Shown: piece after piece, positions 3,286 through 20,802 of the stretch
How the letters are laid out: each line of letters starts with the position of its first letter
Position numbering within the stretch: the first letter of the stretch is position 1
Origin: Acanthamoeba lenticulata
Taxonomy: Eukaryota; Discosea; Longamoebia; Acanthamoebidae
Length of the DNA stretch: 64,000 nt
NCBI GenBank assembly: GCA_002179805.1
Contig: NAVB01000045.1
Span: 22,274 to 86,273 of the forward strand
Reading direction: 5' to 3'
The notes under the pieces: model-generated
Told to the model about the DNA's origin: nothing
The model's database searches: none
What the model saw: only the letters and a program-made list of their open reading frames with translations
Position numbers and translations under genes: made by a program

Positions 3286-6200
3286 GATGAAGGTGGTGCC
3301 CAAGATTCCTATCTACGACCTCGACCGACTCGACTTGTCCACTATCCCCTCGGCCCGGCGTGCCCAGCTCCTGCCTCGCGAGGCTCGAACCCCCACTTCG
3401 GGCCCGCGACACGCCAGGCTGCTTGCTCAGGATGAAGCTGATGACGACACACAGAACAACAAGAATGCCGCCAACTGCGCCGCCATGCCGCCACGTGACT
3501 ACAGCCGTACCTGCGCAAAGTTGCGCCTGGTCGAGCTTGGCATGCCCGCGGCTGGCGTTGAGGATATGATCAGCATCGATAGGTTGAACGAGGAGTCCAT
3601 TCTCCTCAACCTCCAGAGGCGTTACGAGGACGACCTCATCTATGTACACTTGTCTTCCTCTCTTTCTCTCGGTTCTTTACGGCTTTGTGCCTGACTTGGT
3701 GCCCCGCTGTCTATATGACAGACATACACCGGCCCCATCCTGGTGGCAATGAACCCCTACAGAAGGTTGCCCATCTACACCAAGCCTTATGTGAAACTAT
3801 ACAAGCAACAACCCGTTGGGTCCCTCCCTCCTCATGTATTCGCCGTCGCCAGCGCAGCCTACAACGCGCTTCTGGAAAAAAAGTCCAAGAACCAGGCCAT
3901 CGTCATCAGGTGCCTCCCTTTACATCATGCGTAGAAAAAGTCATGTTTTACTTTTGTTTATTTTTTAATTTTTTTTTAATTTTTGCTTTTTTGGCTTTTT
4001 TTTCGAGACTCACGGGCCGTCTTGCACGTGTAGCGGCGAGTCAGGCGCGGGGAAGACCGAAACCACGAAGCTGATCATGCAATTCCTGGCCCAGTGCACT
4101 AACAAGCACACTGAGATCGAGAGTCGCATCCTGGCCGCCAACCCCGTGCTGGAGGCCTTTGGCAACGCCGCCACCGTCCGCAACAACAACTCCTCTCGTT
4201 TCGTACGTACAAGAGAAGCCCCTCATGAGCTCGCACCTCACGCGCCTAACCTGTCCACTAGGGCCGCTTCATCGAGATTCGCTTCAGCGAGACATGCACC
4301 TCCATCGAGGGCGCCAAGATAACCAATTGTACCTTTCCTCTTCCTCCTCCTTGCTCGGGAGTTGGTCTGGTCTTGTGTTGACCGGGCCACTCGTTACAGA
4401 CCTTCTCGAGAAGTCACGCATCGTCAAGCAGGCCAAGGGCGAGCGCAACTACCACGTCTTCTACATGTTTCTCGCCGGCTGCACGCCTTATGAGAAGAAG
4501 TTGTACAGCTTGAAGGAGCCGCACGAGTACCACTACTTGAACCAAAGCGGCGTCTACACGCTACCCAACGTTGACGACAAGCTCGACTGGGCCCGCGTGA
4601 AGGTACGGACTTGCTTGTGCGCGGTCTTGTCTGGCCAATCAATCTCACGCACTTCGTGCGATGAACCCGGGTCAGGACGCAATGGTGGGCCTCGGCATCG
4701 CCGATTATGACATGAAGAGCGTGTACTCGATCCTTGCCGGGATTCTCAGCCTGGGCAACATCAACTTCATCAGCGGCAAGGACCGCACGCTGATCGAGGA
4801 CGAATCCTGTACGTTGCTCCCTTTTCCCTCCTGGTCGTACATTTTTTGGACCAATTTCCTGACGTCGTACGGTCCCAGGGGTTGAAACGACCGGCAACCT
4901 GCTCGGAGTCCTGCCCGCTGTGCTCAAGGACGCTCTGCTGACCCGCTCGATCAAGGTCGGCACCGAGCAGATGACCATGCTCCTCAAGCCCGCCGAGGTG
5001 AGCACCAATCCCGCGATGGCTTCCGTCCTTCGCTTGTGATCCTCACACTTGGGTACCGTGCAGGCCGTCGATGCGCGGGATACGCTCGCCAAGGTCGTCT
5101 ACGGCCGGCTGTTCAACTGGCTCGTGCAGCAGATCAACAATCGCATCAAGGGCACCTTCTGCGAGGCCAATCCCTTCATCGGCATTCTCGACATTTTTGG
5201 CTTCGAGAACTTTGCCGTACGTCTCTTGGCTGCAGCTTCGTCCCAACTTGAGGCTCCATGCTGACTTGTTATTCTCGTGCAGACGAACAGCTTCGAGCAG
5301 CTGTGCATCAACTTCACCAACGAGACCCTCCAGCAGCACTTCAATCGCCACGTCTTCACGTACGAGCAGAAGGAGTACGAGCGCGAGGGCCTGAAGTGGG
5401 AGTCGATTACGTTCAACGACAACCAAAAGTGCATCGACCTGCTCGAAGCCGTACCTCTACTCACCTGCCCCGCCTCTCGCGCCTCCGCCAATTGCTCATC
5501 GTCATTGCGTGAACAGGTCACGCCGCCCGGCATCCTGCCCCTGCTCGACGAAGAGGCCCGGTTCCCCAAGGGCTCCGATGAGAGCTTCCTGGCCAAGGTG
5601 ACCGAGGTCCACAAGAAGCAGCCCCACTTTGAGACGCCCGCGCGCCGCGCGCCCTGCTTCACGGTCAAGCACTACGCGGGCGACGTGTCGTATCAAATCG
5701 CGGGCTTCTTGGAGAAGAACCGGGACCCGCTGGGCGCTTCCATCATCAGCTGCTTCCAGAGCTCGAGCATCGCGCTCCTCCGCAAGCTGTTCCCTGAGGA
5801 CCTCAGCACCCCGCGCACGCTTCGCGGCGGCCCCAAGACCATCGCCCTTTCTTTCCGGGTACGCCACACCGCTTTCTCGAGTGTGGCATGATCGTTCTCC
5901 AGTCGCAGTACTGACAAGGCAAGTCTCTCGTCCTCGCGTGGCCCAACGCAGATGCAATTGCGCTCGCTGATGACGCTGCTGAGCCAGACCGAGCCCCACT
6001 TCATCCGATGCATCAAGCCCAATACGCTCAAAATCCAGCGGTGCTTCGACGCCGCGCTGGTCTACCATCAGCTGACCTACGCCGGCATGATGGAGACCAT
6101 CCGGATTCGGTACTGCGAGCTCTTCTCCTCTGTGTAGACTTGTTCTTCACAACGTGCGCTCATCACCCGAGCTCTTGTGATCGATCTGGTTACCTTGCAG

Positions 6201-9200
6201 CAAGTCGGGGTTCCCCATTCGCGAGACCTATCAGTCGTTCTGGTTCAACTACCACGCGCTCACCCAGCGCACCAAGTTCCTCAAACCGCACAGCGGGAAC
6301 TACACCAAGCCGTGCCAGTGCGTGCCACCCGCCAACGTCTTCCTCACCTCTCTAGTCCTTTCCGCTCCCATCGGCTCACACAAGCGCACACGATCATACA
6401 CGACCAGGATCCTCCTCACTGCGCTGGTCGAGGAGAACAAGGGCCTGCTCATCCTTGGCCACTACTACGCCGGCCAGACCAAAGTCCTCATGAAGGACGG
6501 CCAGTTTGCCTTGCTCGACAGCGCGCGGCGCGTCGTCCTCGGAGGCTACGCGCACCTCATCCACCGGGTACTTGCCCCGGGCCTGGGACCGATCCACTGT
6601 CCATCCGGCGCCATGGAACGGTACTCACCAGGTCGTGGTCCGAGCAGGCGCTGCGGTTGCATCGCGACCGGCAACAGTTCTTGCGCAAGCGGGCTGCCGC
6701 CACGAAGATCAGCGCCGCCTTCCGGGCCCACCGCGCCCGGCTGCAGTGGCTCGAGGTTCGAATCTCGCCCTTTGACCAACCTCGACGATGCCATTTGCCT
6801 GACCTGATTTGGGCTTTGTCGCAGCTGAGGGCCCGCATGCGCGCCGCCAAGCGCCTCCAGGAGGCCCAACAGAAGGCCGCCCTCATGGTGCAGGCCAACT
6901 GGCGCAGGCGCCAGGCCAAGCGCACCTACGAGACACTTCGCGACGAAAAGGAGAAGAAGGAGCGCGCCGCCCGGGCCGCACGCGCGGCCGAGGAGGAGCG
7001 TGCCGCCATGGCCACACGGGCCGCGCTCGAACGCGAGGAACGCGAGCGGGCTGCACGCGAATCGGCCGCCGCAGAGGCCGCCGAGCGCGAGAAGGAGAAG
7101 GAGCTCGAGCGCGCTCGCGCTCTCCAGGAAGCCGATAAAAATGCGCACAACAACAGCAAGGCCGACTTCCCGGCAGCGTGCATGGTGCCGTCGGAGGAGC
7201 AGGTTCGCCTGGAGGCCCGCATGCGGCTGCTCGAGAGCGAGCTTGAGGAAACGCTGCGCGTGCTGCGCTCACTCGTCTCCTCCAAAGCCAACCCGACCGC
7301 CGAGTGGATGCACGAGCGCATTCGACGCCTCGAGAGCCAGCTGATGACGCACCACAACCAGGACCATCCTCACCTTCATCAACGCGTTGCTGAGGATGGG
7401 ACAGCGGCTCCGGCGCAAAAGGAAGAGGACAGGTGGCAAAAGGCCAAGATTCGCAGCCTCGAGGAGGACCTCAAGGGCAAGGACGAGCTTTACGCCGCCA
7501 CGCAGCTGGTGGTCCGCAACCTGCAGGACGACCTCAACGCGCTCACCAGCAAGGTTTCTTCCGCGAGTGGTGAAGGGTGGATAGAGGCCAGGCACTGACA
7601 TGGTCTTTCCGCCTTGCGGCCGGCAGGTTGCGACGGAGGAGCCGCGAAGCAAGGCCAAGCTGCAGTGCCTGGAAGAGGCCATTAAGGAAAAAGACCGGAG
7701 CGTTGCCGCGACCAGGACCGCGATGGGTGCCCTTGAGGAGGAGCTCAAGGCCCAAAACCAAGTCCTCGCCTCGACCAAGGTTCGCCGCCCCGTCTTTGTC
7801 CACAACGCGTTGGCCTGCGAGGCTCACTCGGTCGCGGACCAGGTGACGATGGTGAGCCTGGAGCAGCAGCTCAAGGAGAAGGACCAACGCCTGGTCGACG
7901 CTCTCAAGGAGAAGGATCAAAGCTTCGCCGCGACTAGGACCGCGATGCAGGCCCTCGAGGAGGAGCTCAAGGCCAAGGATCAAGTCCTTGCCGCGACCAA
8001 GGTTTGCCGCTTCATCGCGATTGTCTGCGAACTTGGCGTCTCACTCCAAACGGTTGGATTACAGGAAATGATGTTCGGCCTCGAGGAAGAGCTCAAGCAC
8101 AAGGACAAGAGCCTCAAGGCCAGCCAGGCCGAGGCGCAGAGGATGCAGGAGGAGCTCAGGCAAACGAGCCAGATGCTCGACGCCAGCAAGGTGCGTCCCC
8201 ACCCCAGCATTGCACGTAAAGGCGGGTCGTGGTGGTCGGCTCACCTGATGTCTGTGGTGCAGGGGGCCACGCTGAGCCTCCAGGCTGAGGTCAAGCAGCA
8301 GCACGAGATCCTCACCTCCACCAAGGTATGCGGGCTCATTTGGCCCAAAGGCCGTTCAGGTGAACTGACAAGTCGCGTAGGCGGTGGTGAGCTCGCTCGA
8401 GTTGGAGCTCAACGAGAAGGCCGGTCTGCTCGCCTCGACCAAGGTATAGCCAGTCCGCGCGCTGTCGAGCAGTGCGATGAAGATGTAACATAATAACCGG
8501 TGGGCTGGCCGCAGGCGACGGTGCAGCGGCTCGAGGAAGAGGCACAGGAGAGGGACAGCAGCCTTGTGTCCATGCAGGCCACGGTGCAGGGCCTCGAGTT
8601 CGAGATTGCCGAGAAGACCCGAATCCTGGCCGACACCAAGGCCGTCGTGGAAAGCCTCGAGGAGGAGCTCAAGCAAAAGGACAACCGGCTCGAGTCCAGC
8701 AAGGCCGAGACGCAGAGGCTGCAGGCCCAGCTCGATGAACAGGCTAAGCTTTTGGCCGCGACCAAGGTCGAGAGCCCTTTTGTTCGTTCTGCTTGATGTG
8801 CAGCCGCACCTGACTCTCGATGGCTGCGCAGACCGTGGTGGAGGCTCTCGAAGCCGAGCTCAAGCACAAGCTGGGCGAGCTCGCCGAGCGTAAGGCTGAG
8901 GTGACCCGGCTCGAGAAGCTCCTGCAGGAGAAGGACACGATTCTTGCCTCCACCAAGGTACATCACCATCATGATTGTCAAATTATCATCATCGTTATCA
9001 TTTTTCTGATTTTCTGATTTCTTGTGAGCGCCTGCAGGCCGTCGTGCAAGCTTTCGAAGTCGAGCTCAAGCACAAGACGGACGAGCTCGCTGAGCGGAAA
9101 GCTGAGGCAACCCAGCATGAGCAGGAACTGCAGGAGAAGAACACGGTTCTCACCGCGACCAAGGTACCCTTCGTCCTCGTCCTCGTTCTCGTCCTCTTGG

Positions 9201-11711
9201 TAGTCATCCCCTGATCGCTTCTGTCTTCGTTTTCCTGCAGGCGGTCGTGCAGACGCTCGAGGCTGAGCTCAAGACCAAGGACGCTATTCTGGCCTCGACC
9301 AAGGACGTCGTGCATAGCCTCGAAGTCGAGCTCAAGAACAAGACAGACGAGCTTGTCGCGCGTCACGCCGAAGTGGCCCGTCTCGTGATGGAACTGCAGG
9401 AGCGGGACGTTGTCCTCGCCTCGACCAAGGCCACGGTGGAGAGCCTGGAGGAGGAGCTCCGACGCAAGGACGAGCGCCTCGCCGCCGCCAGCGCGTTGGA
9501 GGCCGAGCTCAAGTCCCAGGAGGCGATCCTGGCTTCCACCAAGGCTGTCGCGCAGCGCCTAGAGGCCGAGCTTGAGGAGCAGTCTCAGCGCTTCGCCGCC
9601 GCACAGGAGGAGGCGAGTGGGCTGAAGGACGAGCTCAGCGCACGGGACGAGAAGCTCGCCAGTTCGCGTCTGGCCGTACAGAGCCTCGAGGATCGACTCG
9701 CCGAGAAAGAGAGCCTCTTCACCGCGACCAAGGTAAACAGCTGCAGCCTTTCAAGTTCATATTGCTTGCTTGTTTGCTCAAGCGCTCATCCTCATTCATC
9801 GTGGGACCAGGCTGTGGTGCAGAGCCTCGAACACGAGCTCAGGGAGCGATCGGACCAGCTCAGCGCTGTTCGGGTTCGTTCACCTCTCCTCTTCCACTCC
9901 TTGGCCGTGCCTTCATTGACGGACGAATCCATTCCCTCAGACCGAGTCGCAGGGCTGGTGGGAGAAGCTTCGCCGGAAGGACGACAAACTGGCTGGCGCT
10001 CGGGTGCGTGGCCTGCCCTCCGCCTTCGTGTCGGCCAATCTTGTTGGTGATGGTCATGTGCTGACGACGGGTATTGTTGGTCATCCACAGCTGACCGTCA
10101 TGCGGCTCGAGGAGCAGATCAAGGAGCACGCTTCGCTCCTGGCCTCGGCCAAGGTCGACCCAGCCTTGATCGCTCTCCCCCGCTTTGGGCGACGTTGAGC
10201 TGACATGCTTGGGGCCGGGATGGATAAACAGGCCAAGACAAGCTGCGTTGAGGAGGAGCTCATGCACAAGTCCAACCTGCTGAAGGAGCTCAGTGCTGCC
10301 CGGCCTCAGCTGGAGGAGGAGCTCGCCCGCAAGACCGACGAGCTCGCCTCTGCGCAGGTGAGCCCATATTCGTTGTTGTTGTCGTTCATCTGCGAGGTCA
10401 TCGTGTGGCTCACTTAAAACGTGACCCGACAATGCAGAGCACGACACGCAGCCACAAGGACGAGCTCAGCCGGCGCGACCAGGATCTTGCCGCCAGCCAG
10501 GCCGAGGTGCGCAGCCTCAGCGAAGCGCTCAAGCAGAGAGAGCAAGAGTTTGTCAGAGCACAGGTCCAACCTCCCCCTAAGCTCATGCCTTGTGTGTTGA
10601 TGTCGCAATGGCGCTGACACACCACGTATGTCTTGTGTTGCAGGCCGTCAGCTGCACGTTCGAGGAAGAGCTCCGCGAGAAGAGCCGCACGCTGGTGGCA
10701 CTCCAGGCCGAGATCAACACCCTGCGGCTCACCTTTGGTGCGCACGAGCAGCAGTGGAAGGCGCAGCTCCAGAGCCTCCAGGCACAGCTGCTCCAGGCTT
10801 CCTCCGCCGTTGCTTCGACCTCGTCCTCATCATCGTCGTGGTCATCGACCTCAGCGTCACCCGCGCCGCCTCCGCCGCCACCGGCGGCCACCGTCAAGAC
10901 TCACCAGCGGACCTCACCAGGAGGCTCGTCCACCGCCGGCTCTGCGGCCCCAGCGCCGATCGGCACCGCCGCGCCCCCGCCGCCTCCGCCTCCACCGGCG
11001 GCCAAGGCCGTGGTGCCCAACCCGAGCGAGTCGCTGCTCAAGCTGCGTCAGCGGGTCCCGCCCCCAGCCGCTGCCGATGTCGAAGTTCAGGCTTCGGCCA
11101 GCGGCGCACCTCCGCCTCCCCCGCCTCCGCCGGCGGCCAATTCAGGCAGCTCGGGCAACTCGCTTGCCAAGCTGCGCCAGCAGACTGCGCGCGACGCCTC
11201 GGCCGGCAACCAACGCCAGGCTCAGCAGCATCAACAGCAGAGCGGATTTTCGATGGACCGCCTACAGCAGCAACTGCTCGAGGCCATTGCACGCCGCACG
11301 CACGCTGCCGAGGCTTCCGCCCCACCGCCCGTGCCCCCGCGCGAGGACGCGCCGGCTGCCCTGGGTCGCGGGCCCTGCGCCTCGTGCGCTTCCTGCGCCC
11401 CCGCCGCCGCCGCAGCTTCTGCTGCCGCTCCCTACGAGGCGCCTCCGCCGCCTCCGCCGGCCAGGGTAGACTACGGCGGCTTCCGGCCGGCGTCGTCAGG
11501 GCTGCGGATGGCGCACAAGCCCGCAGGCATCAGCCGCACGCAGTTCGCCGACGTGCCGCCGCCGCCGCAGCAGCCTGGAGGATCGTCGACGACAACCACG
11601 AGCGCTAAGCCGCGCCAGTCTGTTGGGGCACTGATCTCCAGGTTCGGGGCCAGCAGGAAGGATGGTGAGGCAGCCCCAAGTCCGTCTGTGTATTTTGTAC
11701 AAATTAACTGA
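3286..11711 (+). CDS. Unconventional myosin with modular coiled coil and polyproline/WH2-like tail
   Basis: Actin-based motor of roughly 2,100 residues in more than 30 exons. The motor shows the P-loop [12 protein letters not shown] (exon from about 4033), switch I NNNSSRFGRF, switch [10 protein letters not shown] (about 5190) and the actin-interface stretch [11 protein letters not shown] (about 5993). One or two IQ-like helices (about 6690-6920) follow, then a charged single-helix-like segment (6940-7140), then about 1,000 residues of coiled coil built from repeating ST-K / SLE-EL-K modules (7620-10790). The tail (10860-11700) has three polyproline runs suited to profilin or SH3 binding, short basic LLKLRQR and LAKLRQQ helices, and a [11 protein letters not shown] helix resembling the start of a WH2 actin-binding motif. 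I see no FERM, MyTH4 or TH1 domain, so it fits no standard myosin class I know. The start is the first in-frame ATG after the UTR acceptor. AATAAATA follows the stop at about 11726. Confidence 0.85.
7623..10700 (+). repeat. Exon-aligned coiled-coil repeat modules in the myosin gene
   Basis: More than a dozen consecutive exons encode variants of one block of 20-40 residues: A-VVQ-SLE-EL-K-KD-ELA...LASTK. Most exons end with codons for (A/S)-(T/S)-K directly before a phase-0 GT donor, for example near 7780, 8001, 8190, 8326, 8445, 8767, 8959, 9164, 9733 and 10155. Protein repeats and exon borders therefore coincide, the pattern expected from exon duplication. The stretch at about 9241-9733 is a long exon holding several modules without introns. 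Confidence 0.8.
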
Positions 11712-11779
11712 AAATAATAGCATAAAATAAATACGGCACAAAAAGTAACCTTTTGAAAAACGAAAAGTTACACTCAACA

Positions 11780-14700
11780 TGAACAGGCTTAGCTTTGCTG
11801 GGCTCGCGGCCCGCAAGCCCATGAAGGCTAGCGCAAGCCTACAGGCGTTGGGTGGTGAAGGTGAGGTCCTCTTTATTTTATTTTAAGTGAACTGCGAGAG
11901 AGCGAGAAAAGCACAACAACCAACCCCAGGGAAGAAGAAGGGAGAGAGCCAGAACGTTGGTAGAGGATGGAATTTGAAGGCTTGACTGTGCGCAAGCCCA
12001 TGAGGGCACCAGCCGTGCTGGTGCTGCCAGGTCTTGCGCTATGAGCTCTCGTCCTCCTTGTGGTTGTCCTGACTCATGCCCTTGTGTGCATGTTGTGGTT
12101 GGGGCCACCAACGCCAGATACCCCTGTTGTTACTGCCCAGCCGGAGAGAATAAGCGCGCACAAGCCCCTCCAGGCGTCTCTCCTCCACCAGCAAGGTACT
12201 AACTCTCGCCAAGCAAAAAGGTTTGGATGAGTTCAGCGAAACTGCACCACAAATTTCGGTTTCGGCCCACCGCTGCAAACCAGCCTGCACCACAACCAAC
12301 GCAACTATGGCTTCAGCACGCCTCGCTGTGGGCGGGTTGATCGCGCGCAAACCCATGCGGGTTCCTCCTTCTGGCGAACCAGCAGCGCACCAGCAGCAAG
12401 GCAGAGCCACTGTCTTCTCCCCACTTTGGTGGTGCTGTTTCTGACTGGGCCATTTTTTTGTGGCGTTGGTACAGATGTGTTCAACGACGTTGTCAACGCC
12501 CTCTCCTTAGGTTCCTGGGGCGCGACCCCGCCCGTGGCAGGTACTTCACCCTCTAGGGCTCTATCTGTTTCACTTCATTCTGCGTTTAGTGAAAATGCAA
12601 TCTCGGGTCGGGGGACAAAGTTCTGTGCTTTTGTTGTTTTTGCGTCATTTTGCTTTGTTCGTACGACGATGCAAAAGAGACGCGCCCGCGGACTGGATGC
12701 GCATAGGCCCATGTCGGCCCCTCAGGCGTCCTTGTTGGACCTGAACCCGACACGTACGACCACAACACGTGGCGTCACGACACTCACAAACCCGAAATTT
12801 CAACTCTGCACCAGCGGGCGCTGCTGTTCTGTGCATCAGCATGTTCATGAAAAGTTTCTGAAACCTGACGAAATGTGTTTGTGGTGTGTTTACGTCGTCC
12901 ACAGCCGAGCCACCAATGTTGGGCATGAGCAACACCGCGATGCCGCCGACGGTGATGGCCCAGCAGCCCGCCTTCGCGGGCCTCAGCGCTCGAAAGCCCA
13001 TGGCCGCCCCGTCAGCAACCGAGCCGCCAATGTCGGGCATGAGCAACACCGCGATGCCGCCGACCCAGATGACCCAGCAAGCAGCCCATGCGGGCCTCAG
13101 CGCTCGAAAGCCCATGTCCGCTCCATCAGGTTTGTTCTCTGCCGATTGCGCATTCCACGAATTCCTCATTTATCATGTCATAACTGACTTTTGAAAATTA
13201 TCTTTTTAATCCCAAACGCAGGCGATCATCACGCCCCCAAGCAACAGAGCGCGTATGCAGGCCTGAACGTGCGGAAGCCCATCAACGCCGCCAACACCCT
13301 GAATGCTGGCCCGACAGTGATGCCTGTCGGGCCAGAATTACAACAACGCGCATCGTCGAGCGGTCTGGCCGTGCGCAAGCCCCTCGCGGGTGGTCTATCG
13401 ATGATGTGCGTCAACGTCGGCCTTCTTCCTCCTCGTCGTCTTTATCACCATCACCTTCTTCATCGTCGTCGTCGTTCTTGTCTGACGGCCACGCCTCTCT
13501 CCGCTCCAGGAACTGCATCCTCCCCACGATCGTCGCGCGTCGCGGCATGACGGCGCAGACCCAACAGCTCCAGCAGTCTTACGGGCAGGTGGATGCCTCG
13601 TTCGACTCTCCTGCCGCTGCCCAAGTCCAAGCCCATGACCTGATGCAGGCCGTCCTGGGCCTCCGGATGGCTCAGTTCCAAGCCTCGGCGGACCCCGAGC
13701 TGGTCCAAGAGCTGGCCAAGCTGCAGGAGCTCGTCGCGCTGGGCTACCTCCAGGCCGAGCAGGCCATCCGCCGGCTCGACGAGCTTGCAGCGGCGGCTGG
13801 TGGCGATGCTGGTGGCGATGGTGCTGACGTCAGCATCAACATCCGCCTCAACACGCCTAGCGGCTACTCGGCCTCGCCCGCGCGGGACATGACCTACGCC
13901 TTACAGTCCGCCGCCTCTGCCGCCGCCGTCAATAACGACGACGACGACGGGCTGCGAGTCGAAGCCTTCGTGTCCTCTTCCTACACGTGCGGCCCCACTT
14001 GCCTGTCGACAAAGCTGCTGCTGTTGTTGTTGTTGTTCTCGTTGTTGATGAACGCTGCGACCACCAGGATGAACGTGTGGGGCGGCTATGGCGGCGTCTA
14101 CCTCGAGGGCCCCCAGGCCGCCGCCTCGGGCACGGCGTCGCGGCCGCGGCCGCAGCCGACCCAGTCCAACAGCCGCAACGTCCGCGTGTTCATCTCATCC
14201 ACCTTTAGGTCCGCCCAACTGACCGGCGGCCACGCAGCGCACAGCCCTGACCGCAATGCTTATCTTGTTGTTGATCTGCGCAGGGACATGGAGATGGAGC
14301 GTGAGGAGCTCATGAAGTGGGCCTTCCCGCGGCTCCGCAAGTTCTGCAGCGAGCGCGGCGTCTTCCTCACGCAGGTCGATCTGCGTTGGGGCATCACCGA
14401 GGACCAGTCCCAGGCCGGCGACACCATCAACATCTGTCTCCGCGAGAGTACGCCCCGCCCTCATTACGCCCCAATGGTCCATGACGACTCACGCATGACG
14501 CGGCCGAACGCTGCAGTCGACCTGTGCCGGCCCTACTTTGTGTGCATGCTGGGCGAGCGTTACGGCTGGGCTCAGCCCGACGAGCAGTGCAGCGACGAGC
14601 TCCTGCGGAGGACGTACGAGCGCGCGACGCCCAACTTCCCGTGGATCGCCAACTACCGCGACCGGAGCATCACCGAGCTCGAGATCCGGCACGCGCTGCT

Positions 14701-17700
14701 CAACGACTCGACCGACCGCGCGATGGACCGCTGCCTGTTTTACTTCCGCCAGCCCGGCACTCCCATCAAGGGTCTCGACGAACGCGACCTTAAGCTCAAG
14801 TCCAAGCTCGACCGCCTCAAGGACGAGATCAAGAGCGCCGGCGCTCGCGTCGCGCCCTACAAGACGTACGTGAAGGCCGACCGGCTGAGCTCGCACGCGC
14901 CCCATGACTAATCGTGGAGGTGGACGGGGACAGGCCGTCCGAAATGGCGCTTAAGATGGTGGAGGCGCTTGAGGCAGCCATCGACCAGGACTTCCCGAGG
15001 CGCGAGGCGCCCACGCCGCTCCAGCGCGAGCGGGCAGCGCATGAAGCCTTTGCGGCCAGCCGCGCGCGGGTCTACGTCGGGCGAGGCCACTACTTTGAGC
15101 GCATTGACAAGCACTTGGCCACCCACCCGTCCAAGCCGCTCGTCATCTGCGGTATGTCGTTCATCATCTCGAGACGATGACGCGAGGCCTGACCTGGGAG
15201 AGCTCGTGTGTTTGTGTCTGTCTGTCTCTTGCTTGCAGGCGAGAGCGGATCGGGCAAGAGCGCGCTGGTGTGCAACTGGGCGCTGGGCTATGTGGAGCGT
15301 CACAAGTCCGAGCGGCTCGTGCTGACGCACTACATCGGGAGCACGGCGCAGAGCACCGACCTGGCGGGCCTCCTGCGGCGGATCATGGGCGAGATCAAGG
15401 ACTTTTACGGCGTGCCGGACGAGATCCCGACCGACCTGCGTTCGCTCATCGACGCCCTCCCCGACTGGCTCACCGAGGCGGCCAAGCGGGGCGGCCTCGT
15501 CCTCGTTCTCGACGCTCTCAACCAGCTTGAGGACGGAGGCAAGGTACGATCTCGCATTCTTTGGATGCTTCTTGCTTGCTGGGGCACGTGCTTATGTTTT
15601 TTGTGGAATGCGTGGTATGCTCTTTCACACAGGGCGAGGTGCACGAGCTGGGCTGGCTGCCGCGCGAGTACCCGAACGGCGTGCAGGTGGTCGTGTCGAC
15701 CCTGCCCGGTCGCTGCATGAGCACCATCCAGCAGCGCGGCTGGCACACGCTCCAGGTGGAGCCGCTCAACGAGACCGAGCGCCAGGCGCTGGTCCAGGAG
15801 TACATGGCCCTCTACGGCAAGTCCCTCAACGCGGCCCAGCTGGCCCGCATCATCAAGGCCCCGCAGTGCCAGAACCCGCTCTTCCTCCGCACCTTGCTCG
15901 AGGAGATGCGGTACGTCGTCAGCGTTGCATAGCTTGAATTCCTGCATTGGCCGTCAAGGCGCTCATCACGCTGACTTTATCATCATTCTGCTTGGCAGGG
16001 TGTTTGGCTCGTTCGAGGCGCTGGACGCCAAGATCAGCCACTATCTCACGGCCAACACGCCGCCGGAGCTGTTCAACCTGGTCTTCTCCCGGCTGGAGGG
16101 CGACTTTGAGACCAAGCACGCCGGCACCAGTACGAGAACGATCGCTCCCATCGTCATCATCAGAGCTGACGTGTCGGACGCTGACCTGCACCCCGTGTGT
16201 GTGGCCTGCTTGAGCTCAGGCGGCAAGTCGCTGCAGGGCCTCGTGGGCGACATCATGTCGCTGATCTGGGTCAGCCGCCGCGGCCTCACGGAGAGCGAGC
16301 TTCTCGACATTCTTGGCATTCCGCACTCGCTCTGGTCGCCGCTGCATCTGGCCCTGGCACGTCCACGCCCACACCTTCGAGTCCCTACTTTGCCCACCTT
16401 GATCTCACTCTTGATGGTGGTGTTGCTGCTCGGGACTGCGTGCAGGAAGAGTCGCTGGTGAGCCGGTCGGGCTTCCTCACGTTCTTCCACGACTACATGC
16501 GGCAGGCCGTCGAGGCGCGCTATCTGCGCCCGCAGAACCGCTACAACCACTACCGCCGCCGCATCATCACCTACTTTGACCGGTGCGTCCCTCGTCTACG
16601 ACGTCGTCTGTCTTGTCCCGGCTGCTGGACTGGCGATGGTGATGGTGACGCTCGCGATGAGCAGGGCCGAGGCGGGCGTCCCCGAGAGCCGGCGCTGCGA
16701 AGAGGTGCCCTACCAGCTCATGGCCAGCCAGGACTTCGAGGGCCTCGCCGCCTGCATCACCGGTGCTGCGCCGCTCGAACCCGCGCCAGTTGGCTCATTT
16801 CGGCGTGTGTGCTGACCTTCTGCGACATACTGTGCGCACAGAGCTGGAGATGTTCAAGCTGCTGTCGGCCGACGAGTACCGGTTCGACTTGTATCAGTAC
16901 TGGCAGCAGGCGGCCAAGCACACGGACCCGGAGGCCTACTTCACCGACCGTTTGGCCCGCTTCGAGGCCGAGGCCCGTCCGACGCCCACCGAGCTGGCCG
17001 CGATCCTGACCTCGGCCGGCAATTTCCTGCAGGTGCGGCCGCTCGAGCCGAGTTGCAAAGGCAGACCTCTCGTCTGTGCGGTGTGTGGCCTGACTTCCGT
17101 GTGGCGGGGCACCCCAACAGGACATCGGCGCTTTCCTCAACGCCGAGACCTACCTCAAGCGCGCGCTCGAGATCACGGAGCAGATCTACCAGCTCGACCC
17201 GTGGCACTCTGAGGTGGCCAGCAAGCTCGACGCCCTTGGCTATCTCTACCGCCTCCGGTACGTCTCCCTCAGATCGCCGTCGTGGTTGTCGTCAGCGTTC
17301 TGACGGCTGACTGCTGCTGGTCCCCATCCGACAGCGGCAAATATGCACTGGCGGCGCCGCTTTACGAGCGCGCGATGAAGATTCGCGAGAAGACGCTCGG
17401 ACCCGAGAATCCCGAGTTCGCCTCGTCCGTCAACAGTTTGGCCATCCTCTACCGCCACCAGGTTTGACGCCCTTTCCTCCGGGCAGAATGTGGAGAATGC
17501 GACAGCGTGGTTCAAATGCCAATAACGTTTGATGGTGTGCTCTCTCTCGGGCAGGGCTTGTACGATAAGGCGGAGCCGCTCTACATCAGGGCGCTGCGCG
17601 TCCGCCAGAAAATCTTTGGCGAAGTCCACGCGGACATTGCGCAGAGCTTCAACTCGCGTACGCACACACACAGTCACACCCGGTGCGCCGCAGCTATTCC

Positions 17701-19160
17701 TCACATGGTCCCACGCGCAACATCCCAGTGGGCTGTCTGAACCAGGACATGGGCCGCTTCCGCGAGGCCGAGGACTACCTTCTGCGCGCTATTTCCATGC
17801 GCGAGACCCTCTTCGGGCCCAACCACCCTGACGGTGCGCGGCTTCTCCTCTCCTGGCCTCGCCTGGCCGCCGCTCTGGGGGCCTACCACGAAAACAAGTT
17901 GTTTTTATTGACGACATGGACATCGTCACAGTGGCGATGTCGCTGGCCAACCTGGGTGGGCTGTACATGGACCAGTCGCGCTACGACGAAGCCCACCCGA
18001 TCTACGCGCGGGCGCTCGCCATCTACGAGAGCGTCTACGGGCCCGTCCATCCGTCCGTCGCCCAGTACGCGGCTCCTCCCGGCGCAGCGATGCCCCTTCA
18101 CTGTATGACCGACTGACCCAACGATCTGACGACGACGCGCAGGACGTTCAACTCGATGGCGGGCCTGGCGCAGGAGGCCGGCAAGTACGACGAGGCCGAG
18201 GCCCTGTACACCAAGACGCTCGCCATCCGCGAGCGCCTGCTGGGCGACTCCCACCCGGAGCTGGCCCTCACCCTCAACGACTTTGCCGTTCGGCTCCTTT
18301 CCCCTTTTTACACGTGTCTCAATTGACCGCTTTGGTCTAAACGCACACACACGCGCAGGTGCTGTACGCGCGGCAGGACAAGTACGACAAGGCCGAGCCG
18401 CTTTACCAGCGCGCCCTCTCCATCCGCGAGCGCGTCATCGGCGTGCACCACCCGGACTACGCCCAGTCCCTCAAGTACGCCCTCTCTTTCTTTGTCTTAT
18501 CCCAATAATTGCCAAATATACAGAATAATAATAATTTATTTACAAAAATGGGAAAATGCAGCAACATCGGATCGCTGTACCAGGACATGGGCCAGTACAC
18601 GCGCGCGCTGCCGCTGTTCGAGCAGGCCCTCCAGATCTGTGAGACCGCCTTCGGGTCGCGCCACATGGACGTCGCCAGTACGTCGCCAGCCGCCCGTGTC
18701 GTCCTCGAGATGCTCATCATCCTCATCACCATTACGTGTGTCGTGGACAGGCTCGTTGACCAACATCGCCGGGTGCTATCAGTTCCTCAAGCGCTACGAC
18801 GAGGCCATCCCGCTCTACCGGCGTGCGCTCGACATCTACGAGGACCTCCTCGGGCCGGTGCACGCCGACGTGGCGGTGACGTCCAACGACTTGGCCGTGC
18901 TCTACTTCACCACGGGCAACAACGAGCAGGCCGAGAAGCTCTACCGCCGCGCGCTGGAGATCTACGAGAAGATCTTTGGGCCCGCCCACCCGGACGTCGG
19001 GCAAGCGCTGGCCAACCTGGGCGAGTTCTTCGCGGCGCAGGGCAAGCGCGCCGAGGCCCGCCAGTGCCTCGAGCGCACCGCCGGGATCTACGCGCAGACC
19101 TTTGGCGACGCCCACCCGCGCGCGCAGGCCGCCAAGGCCACGCTGGCCCGGTTTGCCTAA
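11780..19160 (+). CDS. RKPM-repeat / DUF4062 / NACHT / TPR protein, nephrocystin-3-like
   Basis: Large predicted scaffold or STAND-type ATPase. The N-terminal part (11780-13401) has about nine copies of a GL-x-x-RKPM motif on small exons. A linker with a short coiled coil (about 13520-13800) follows. Next come DUF4062 ([17 protein letters not shown], then VDLRWGIT, then CMLGERYGW, about 14170-14600) and a NACHT-type NTPase with P-loop [11 protein letters not shown] (about 15241) and Walker B-like [11 protein letters not shown] (about 15500). About ten kinesin-light-chain-type TPRs of 42 residues (17110-19150) finish it, with the YxxAxxLYxRAL and LGxxHPD-A pattern. This order is that of nephrocystin-3-like proteins. 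The last RKPM exon joins the DUF4062 part in frame by a phase-2 intron (about 13404-13509). An alternative is two genes, the second starting at ATG 13547. Many short introns were placed by eye. Confidence 0.75.
11793..13401 (+). repeat. GL-x-x-RKPM motif array (about nine copies)
   Basis: Short motif of form (F/Y/H)(A/E)GL-x-(A/V)-RKP(M/L/I)-x-AP. Copies lie near 11793 ([10 protein letters not shown]), 11970 ([10 protein letters not shown]), 12148 (ISAHKPL), 12331 ([10 protein letters not shown]), 12685 ([10 protein letters not shown]), 12970 ([10 protein letters not shown]), 13088 ([10 protein letters not shown]), 13253 ([10 protein letters not shown]) and 13356 ([10 protein letters not shown]). 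Most copies sit on separate exons, and the clearest borders are phase 1 on both sides, which allows duplication or skipping without frame loss. I recognise no named domain. The borders of the copy near 12685 are the least certain. Confidence 0.75.
12905..13131 (+). repeat. Recent 114-bp (38-codon) tandem duplication within one exon
   Basis: Two adjacent units starting at the GAG codons at 12907 and 13021 share the frame [14 protein letters not shown]...[11 protein letters not shown]. By eye about 31 of 37 residues are identical, and most of the DNA is too. Each unit carries one RKPM motif. The single exon runs from the acceptor CCACAG (ending 12904) to the donor at about 13132. Confidence 0.85.
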
Positions 19161-19404
19161 GGAGCAGCCGCTTGCTTCTTTTTGTTTACGGCCGCCTTGC
19201 TTTTGTTCACGGGTGGACATAAAAGCTGTGTCTTGGCCACCTTTGTTCTTTTTTGCCGGAGCCTTACTTCATTTAGCTCGGAGTTTGTTAATGGGTCACG
19301 CGTAACAAACGTATTCGGGTTGCACCAACCGGGGCAAGGTGATTATAGTAAAGGGTTAGAAAGCTCCGACGCGCTGCAACTCACGCGTCGGGGGGCTATG
19401 GCTT
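19161..19404. other. Intergenic, 3' region of TPR gene and 5' region of next gene
   Basis: T-rich 3' flank after the TAA at 19158-19160, then a stretch with no convincing ORF or RNA gene before the next coding region. Confidence 0.4.
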
Positions 19405-20802
19405 TTGCCAGCTAGTCTGCTTCTGATGCACAACGTACGCAAGCTCAGGTTCGGTGTTGTAGGGGCATGCTGCCTCCTTTTCTTGTGGTGGATTTGCTTC
19501 GCGTATATTGGTGGAGACAAGTACTTGGGAGCTCTAATGATTACCCGCACGCCTGCCGGCGTGATGCGGCTGGTGCGGGCTGAGCCTACCCCTGGTGGGT
19601 CCGCGAATGTGTGCCAGCTCAGCTCCACCCTCCGCCAAGTCCTCATCATTCGCTCTTGTGGCGAAATCACGCAGGTCTTCTTCTTCTTCTTCTCCTCCTC
19701 CTTACATGTTGTCGTTTTCTCCCCTTACCTGGGAACTCGGGGGGTGCACCCAGGACAGCCCTTGCGCGCTTCTCTGGCCAAATACGCCACCGACCTCCAT
19801 CTCCAGGACCATTACGACGTGTGGCTGCTTCACGACGTGGGCAACAACACGAGCCCAGAACGGCTCGCCTCGCTGGAAGAGCTTCAGCGCGAGCAGCCCA
19901 ACCTGGGCGTGTTCCTCTATGACACGGCCGCCGTCAAGGCCATGCTCACCACTGCGACCTACATCCTTAATGACCCCACGCCCAGCTTCTGGTTCCACGA
20001 CGCATCCATTATGCTGTGGGCCAGGCAATGCCGACCAGACCTCTGGGCTCCTTCTTCCCCAGTCGTGCCCTATCACGGGTAAGTTCCCCCCCCCCACCCA
20101 CAACACTCATCTGTGCTTCTTATTCACGAAGCGCGTCCTTTGGGCGAATGAGAAGCCACGGGAGGCAGGGAGACCTGTTCATGTGGGTAGTTGAACAGGA
20201 TGCGATGTACTTTGGTGACGTGACTGACTTCCTCGACGCCCACAGTAACAATGGCGCTGGTCTGTACCCCTTTCGTTATTTTTGTTATTTCGTTGTTTTT
20301 GTTTTTGTTTTTATTTTTTTCTAACGCCAATGTGTCGGCAAGCAGACTACATCGCCCACTACTACCCTCTGCCTAAGCACTGGCCTCACAGCAAGAAGAC
20401 GACATGGCATCCACCGGCTGACAAAATGCTGTTCAAGCGCGAACACGTGGAGCGCTACTCGACCACTCTTCTGCGCTTCTTGTACCACATCGTACAGCTC
20501 AACGTGGTGGCCTATGGCGAGATGTTTGCGTCGACCGTGTGCAACCTGCAGCCAGAGTGGTGCGTCATGTCGCTCCTGAACAAAAAGTTCATCGGCCCGG
20601 CCTATGACTGGAATACGGGTCTGACGGATGACCAAGTGGCGGCCATGAGAAGTGACCCCAAGCAGCAAGGCAAGTGGAACCATGCGGTCATATCGCTCAA
20701 AAGTCGGAGCTGCAAGTCGAGTATCACAGCCACCAAGCCTATTGCGCTGGCATCAAATACAAACACAACGTAACAGCACTTGCCGTGTGGATTCACATGT
20801 GA
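19405..20802 (+). CDS. Type II membrane protein, glycosyltransferase-like (possible frameshift)
   Basis: A short basic N-terminus precedes one hydrophobic segment (GVVGACCLLFLWWICFAYI, residues about 17-35), the layout of a Golgi type II signal anchor; ATG 19426 may be the true start. The lumenal part has YDVWLLHDVG, a stretch WVVEQDAMYFGDVTDFLDAH with an aspartate-rich core, and ADYIAHYY. This pattern resembles eukaryotic glycosyltransferase-like families of the DUF3405 type, but I am not certain of the family. Clear introns lie at about 20080-20131 (GTAAGT donor) and 20260-20342 (T-rich, ending GCAAGCAG). The open frame stops at 20773. Another frame from about 20690 reads SELQVEYHSHQAYCAGIKY and on to a TGA at 20800-20802 and looks more like real protein. 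A one-base frameshift or sequence error is likely there. Confidence 0.5.

Follow-up and report, generated by a model that had tools for sequence, protein, structure and literature searches.

The window, a 64,000-nt stretch of Acanthamoeba lenticulata genomic DNA, contains nine readable copies of an octet, [G/S]-L-x-x-R-K-P-[M/L/I], between positions 11779 and 13405 of its forward strand, with a consensus over that interval close to G-L-x-[A/V]-R-K-P-[M/L/I]. The copies lie on small exons, as the first-pass annotation had claimed. A second contig, C421, covers the same region and is read here, from its sequence, as the other haplotype. Exon A (11779..11860) opens the long gene model with the ATG at 11779 (MNRLSFAGLAARKPM...), encodes FAGLAARKPM and ends in the phase-1 donor GTGAGG. 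Exon B (11967..12030; MEFEGLTVRKPM..., ATG at 11967, phase-1 donor) carries EGLTVRKPM and is a probable alternative first exon; if it is internal instead, its first base is 11980, behind the weak acceptor TTGAAG. Exon C (12118..12195) has phase-1 borders on both sides and a diverged copy, ERISAHKPL. Exon D (12307..12400, ATG at 12307) encodes GGLIARKPM and ends in a GC donor; read as an internal exon it starts at 12317 with the acceptor CTTCAG. Exon E (12475..12540; phase 1 on both sides) is without the motif and is tentative, because both of its two changes between haplotypes are nonsynonymous in its frame. Exon F (12669..12753; MQKRRARGLDAHRPM...) has its own ATG at 12669, the copy RGLDAHRPM and a phase-1 donor. 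Exon G (12905..13129, phase 1 on both sides) holds AGLSARKPM twice; the near identity of these copies, noticed earlier at 12970 and 13088, reflects a tandem duplication of 114 nt (38 codons; 12896-13009 and 13010-13123) with units that are 85% alike. Exon H (13222..13405) encodes AGLNVRKPI and SGLAVRKPL between a phase-1 acceptor and the phase-2 donor GTGCGT. It is followed by a fast-changing linker, exon I (13510..13986), in which a decayed copy, IVARRGM, can be made out by eye (13529-13549). Exons J-L (14068..14865) encode DUF4062, exons M-R (14934..16582) a NACHT/STAND ATPase with the Walker A sequence GESGSGKS, and exons S-AC (16665..19160) a TPR superhelix of the NPHP3 type, similar to kinesin light chain.

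Upstream of the array lies a coiled-coil/polyproline gene. It contains a lone GLRMAHKPAG (window 11480-11530), which is one residue longer than the octet and probably a chance occurrence, and a SLLKLRQ / SLAKLRQ repeat (11030-11056 and 11147-11178) beside polyproline tracts.

A 28-exon model that begins with the ATG at 11779 and joins exons A, B, C, D, E, G and H to the series from I to AC stays open for 1595 codons, up to the stop at 19160. This splice chain is predicted from the sequence, the haplotype and orthologs. The lengths of exons B, C, D, E and G are divisible by three, and phase 1 is found at both borders of C, E and G, and of B and D if these are internal. The claim of phase-1 borders therefore mainly stands, with the exceptions of exon F, which has no phase-1 acceptor, and exon H, whose donor is in phase 2. 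The GC donors of exons D and Q give the model two GC-AG introns (window 12401 and 16357), and both are conserved in C421.

When the first 450 residues served as the query, one protein emerged from the 7,992 candidates scored, the ortholog P0001 (E 1.3e-33). Its source contig of 4604 nt is too short for introns like those of the window and is therefore probably derived from mRNA. P0001 begins MMMQQPSFAGLSARKPM and bears GLNVRKPI and GLAVRKPI before a DUF4062-NACHT-TPR body; in all, three octet copies are fused to the same body as in the window protein, and the sequence past the last copy matches across the window's H-I splice. By hand count, 23 of the 24 residues in the last three octets agree between the two proteins, against 12 of the 29 aligned residues in the linkers between octets, with 14 gapped. 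The P0001 array corresponds to the last three copies only and has no bearing on exons A to F.

C421 is collinear with window positions 5738-20769, and its long aligned pieces are about 95-96% identical. One of the two 114-nt units of the G1/G2 tandem is missing from it, which leaves an in-frame difference of a single copy between the haplotypes. When the same model coordinates are applied to C421, no AG acceptor and no GT or GC donor is lost, exon lengths differ only by multiples of three, and the reading frame runs open through 1559 aa. The open 28-exon model, the fusion in P0001 and the frame in C421 establish that the motif array is the N-terminus of the DUF4062-NACHT-TPR protein; it does not merely precede that gene, as had first been proposed.

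Substitutions between the haplotypes support coding of the motif exons. Over their 169 synonymous and 509 nonsynonymous sites, exons A, B, C, D, F, G and H together show 7 and 3 nucleotide changes, respectively (Fisher p 0.003), and substitutions are fewer in motif exons than in introns (10/695 vs 33/849, p 0.0046). By reading, none of the listed changes alters an octet residue. Exons B and F have no changes at all, and exon C has an in-frame 3-nt indel, 3 synonymous changes and 1 nonsynonymous change. Linker exon I shows 1 synonymous and 8 nonsynonymous nucleotide changes. Near window position 11645, C421 has an extra G in a G run close to the end of the last open frame of the upstream gene, which is either an error or a frame difference. 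Other contigs also give like matches in pairs (C745/C746 and C559/C560, in addition to C44/C421), as if haplotypes had stayed uncollapsed in the assembly; of these pairs C44/C421 was aligned.

The motif repetition did not arise by chance. A back-translated degenerate DNA pattern, which suits seven of the nine copies and cannot match C or F, has 13 matches in the 48.5 Mb genome, 7 in the window locus (C44), 6 in C421 and none elsewhere, whereas the reversed control pattern has 3 matches genome-wide. A protein search of the same genome with exons G and H gave four strong matches, all in the window locus and C421. Six weaker matches (E 0.4-3.8) were judged to be noise. In the stretches fetched of the paralogous DUF4062 loci C440, C216, C1635 (1,209 bases) and C560/C559 there is no array, and three lone pattern matches were seen. 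DNA homology between exon units beyond the motif was looked for and rejected: two of ten pairs scored just above the best of 200 shuffles, and both of these align over motif sequence. A 304-aa chimeric query that strings together exons F, A, B, C, D, E, G and H and the beginning of I retrieved nothing at E<=10 among 7,993 candidates scored. The motif had been described as belonging to no named domain, and this is borne out: two array pieces matched no Pfam family at E<=1, and six N-termini searched at E<=10 gave solely matches below the Pfam cut-offs. In the open-licence literature, no description of such an octet array was found among the matches listed, nephrocystin-3 was joined with neither Acanthamoeba nor Dictyostelium, and of four octet spellings just one, 'RKPL motif', turned up, in 2 unrelated bunyavirus reviews. 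The motif array is real and has no Pfam name.

The body of the protein is recognisable. One window exon frame matches DUF4062 (PF13271) with E 3.6e-4 and 21.1 bits, below the cut-off of 24.7, and P0001 matches it above the cut-off (3.8e-13, 49.9 bits). P0001 also matches NACHT (36.3, cut-off 26.7) and TPR_NPHP3 (PF24885; 336.7 bits, cut-off 100; E 8.8e-101). Among the 25 matches listed for P0001 there is no WD40, and TPR families appear instead. A SHOCT-like hairpin before DUF4062 was seen solely in matches below the cut-off. The order DUF4062, NACHT, TPR is common to NPHP3-type proteins, whose animal and bacterial representatives carry no such repeat in their N-terminal extensions (36 extensions were tested across the relatives). 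The N-terminal region of human NPHP3 has a coiled coil and a myristoylated start. That of the window protein is the array and starts M-N, and the protein is therefore termed NPHP3-like and not NPHP3. The spliced DUF4062 matches the TIR-like domain of TEP1 (PDB 11gz, E 2.9e-19). Its S-x-T-E-x-E region reads DRSITELEI; of the two Glu, either of which may correspond to the catalytic E1008 of TEP1, the second (E190 in P0010, a relative free of the array) is invariant in the 40-row alignment A3. A preprint (PMC13174449) reports TIR-like NADase activity of DUF4062, both in antiphage systems of bacteria and in human vault TEP1, states that the specific activity of TEP1 climbs with concentration, and finds no NAD+ hydrolysis by human NPHP3, NWD1 or NWD2 in its assay. 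Human NPHP3 is the closest architecture, so NADase activity may be lacking in the window protein as well.

Relatives were collected with P0001 residues 283-700, which matched 2608 proteins at E<=1e-30 among 7,997 scored; the set examined comprises 121 proteins, namely the 120 that were listed of those 2608 matches and the window protein. At least 60 residues precede DUF4062 in 36 of the 121. A pattern chosen once the sequences had been read, phi-x-x-[RHN][KRED]-P-[LMI], occurs 39 times in the 17,287 residues before DUF4062 (8 times in the window protein) and never in the other 134,703 residues of these proteins. In a search without a preset pattern, the best repeated 8-mer of each of the 36 extensions was compared with 100 shuffles. 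It beat all 100 in seven (the window protein, P0002, P0011, P0013, P0014, P0015 and P0017), and in all seven the top 8-mer is an octet of the array's shape, in P0013 in the form RPLDA and in P0014 and P0017 often with A for P. In five others a few shuffles did as well (2 for P0016, 2 for P0020, 3 for P0001, 5 for P0004 and 6 for P0053). P0006, with three shuffles as good, has a repeat that is unrelated to the octet. The remaining 23 extensions, including those of P0003, P0007, P0009, P0012 and P0029, were not unusual against 100 shuffles.

Related arrays occur in two amoebozoan phyla. The carriers in Balamuthia mandrillaris (Discosea), P0003 and P0004, are of the RKP type, and those in Pelomyxa schiedti (Evosea), P0014, P0016, P0017 and P0029, are of the HR[ED][PA] type. 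A looser octet pattern, which also lets in spurious octets (QMSQNKAL, for instance), gives 28 octets in the RKP group, every one with K or R at position 6, and 29 in the HR group, 25 of them with D or E there. In a tree built from 66 of these 121 proteins, midpoint-rooted for drawing only, the 15 proteins labelled as carriers (P0007 and P0020 by eye) fall inside one clade of 22 rows (support 100/98), which under that root is drawn beside nine animal proteins. The window protein groups with P0001 (100/99). The six HR-type proteins make up one side of a branch with support 100/98. The RKP-type proteins do not form one clade (two changes), with P0011 standing apart. The seven unlabelled members of the clade are P0008, P0009, P0010, P0012, P0019, P0031 and P0102, and three of them have fewer than 80 residues before DUF4062. 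The array is not a property of one gene alone: relatives in two phyla carry arrays, and in the Pelomyxa clade the core has changed. Two members have further N-terminal peculiarities. The precomputed Pfam list of P0016 includes SH3 (PF00018, PF14604, PF07653), and by eye an SH3-like stretch lies between its HRDP motif copies. P0019 has, by eye, a different repeat, [WF]MEE[LM], at its N- and C-terminus, and its Pfam list includes a protein kinase family.

Fast-changing linkers and a variable copy number would also be expected of neutral low-complexity sequence. As an account of the repeats this has almost no probability, since the octets are conserved where the linkers are not and the motif has been retained across the clade.

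The exons of the array differ in how they could be used. An in-frame ATG lies 7, 4, 9 and 7 codons upstream of copies A, B, D and F, respectively, in all four cases with A at -3. For G1 and G2 the distance is 8 codons, and A at -3 is lacking. No in-frame ATG lies within 10 codons upstream of H1 or H2, nor, by reading, of C. An ATG within that distance is thus present for 6 of 9 copies, against 1255 of 13,500 background positions (6000-19500), and among the background cases 21% have A at -3. The relatives show a similar placement: counted over the RKP and HR groups, 9 of 11 array-bearing relatives (10 of 12 proteins with the window protein) have their first copy no more than 15 residues from Met1, P0016, P0029 and P0053 being counted through ELT-type octets. 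It does so in P0013 as well, and P0011 and P0017 are the exceptions. In P0011 a decayed GLSANKLQ can be seen by eye at residue 8. The start of Balamuthia P0004, MEGEGLLVRRPL, resembles the MEFEGLTVRKPM of exon B.

Could the nine copies nevertheless be ordinary internal phase-1 cassettes of a single transcript? The chain A-B-C-D-E-G-H is open in both haplotypes with GT-AG or GC-AG introns, which would suit such an arrangement. However, exon F cannot join in frame: by reading, there is no AG at the position needed for a phase-1 acceptor, and inserting the exon disrupts the frame of the long model. Exon B as a cassette depends on a weak acceptor shortly past an in-frame TAG, which lies 6 nt before the ATG at 11967, and past that ATG. 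A cassette-only arrangement is decidedly unlikely, and the earlier supposition that all copies are spliced together fails at exon F. Copies A, B, D and F are probably alternative first exons, an assignment held with good confidence for F and as likely for B and D. The choice among them would then set which copy occupies the N-terminus, for which the support is fair.

What the octets bind can be approached through the proteins they resemble. AARKSAP is a segment of the histone H3 tail, and P0009 opens with such a tail over residues 1-25 (MARTKQTVRKSTGGKAPRKML; match to an H3 chain at E 4e-7). The octet could on this basis mimic the H3 tail segment GKAPRKQL and bait histone-binding proteins. GLAPRKPI and SMAPRKPL are found in other clade members, and TSK/BRU1 with histone H3.1 is match 13 in a fold search with the model of P0010. 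Set against this, the lysine is absent from HR[ED][PA]-type arrays, and P0009, a EukProt transcript, may be chimeric, if it is not a real capture. Histone mimicry is extremely improbable.

Another candidate partner is a polymeric scaffold, for example the vault that houses the relative TEP1. The genome encodes MVP and, on C440, a separate TEP1-like gene with TROVE and DUF4062, and many copies in a tail would fit a many-fold scaffold. TEP1 likewise has a TIR-like DUF4062 (11gz) beside a STAND ATPase and, according to PMC7916137, short N-terminal repeats whose role is unclear. Those repeats are 30 residues long, and TEP1 has TROVE and WD40 where the window protein has TPR. TROVE has no match at C44 and was located on C440, C610 and C965. 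The C440 gene carries no such array in the stretch scanned, and none of the Pfam matches to the six N-termini is to a repeat family of the TEP1 N-terminus. Tethering to a scaffold is accordingly judged very unlikely.

The octets might instead be ligands of the TPR superhelix of their own or a sister chain, which would hold the sensor shut or link chains head to tail. Kinesin light chain has a leader peptide that acts as such a ligand of its own TPR. The TPR here is of the peptide-binding kind: the sequence matches of P0010 include kinesin light chains, and a fold search with its structure model (mean pLDDT 89.9) finds the TPR superhelix of APPBP2 in complex with the RxxGP degron at ranks 1-4, a STAND-TPR protein at rank 5 and, further down, kinesin light chain with cargo peptides. 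The known ligands of APPBP2 and kinesin light chain are, however, unlike RKP[ML], and no paper was found in the open-licence literature with APPBP2, RxxGP and degron together. If the octet docked in the groove, its K/E switch should be answered there, and charge-reversed positions would therefore be expected to cluster in the groove. Only three such positions separate five RKP-type from six HR-clade proteins (a set that includes P0102, which has no array), and two of the three are an adjacent D-K to R-D swap on one TPR turn. Binding to the protein's own TPR is possible but unlikely.

A multivalent N-terminal docking tail on a NADase-fold STAND sensor is the reading to which we give an even chance. 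The order of the protein is motif array, linker, DUF4062 with its TIR-like NADase fold, NACHT and TPR. Each octet, [GS]-[LI]-x-x-R-[KED]-P-[LMI], would act as a short linear motif that docks one partner site, and the copies per chain multiplied by the chains of a NACHT oligomer would give a polyvalent tail. On a signal sensed by the TPR, this tail would gather the NADase-fold domains or tie them to a scaffold. The switched charge at position 6 points to a change in the site on the partner as well.

Known systems offer partial parallels. Swarozyc antiphage systems belong to the DUF4062 family and, according to PMC13174449, are activated in a large complex; they are bacterial, and the solved one is described there with a helix-turn-helix/winged auxiliary domain and without the NACHT-TPR body or an array. 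Fungal NLR proteins with amyloid signalling motifs (PMC9815663) likewise place short motifs on STAND-type sensors. The amoeba octet differs from these in its proline and charged core and in its many copies. The octet is not known to resemble amyloid signalling motifs. The signalling parts known from STAND sensors are folded domains at the N-terminus or short motifs in single copy. The best reading of the array is an N-terminal signalling or docking tail of the known STAND-sensor kind, in a new form. A wider proposition is put forward tentatively, and is on balance doubtful: amoebozoan NADase-fold STAND sensors would share an undescribed polyvalent tail, the charge of its core would have been switched together with the partner, and the bank of first exons in the window would pick the motif variant that caps the tail. 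If true, a long-conserved linear-motif tail of many copies on a NADase-fold sensor, its copy number differing between haplotypes, would mean that an immune or stress assembly can be built on a different plan, and the octet peptide would be a concrete handle on the partner of the amoeba DUF4062-NACHT-TPR proteins.
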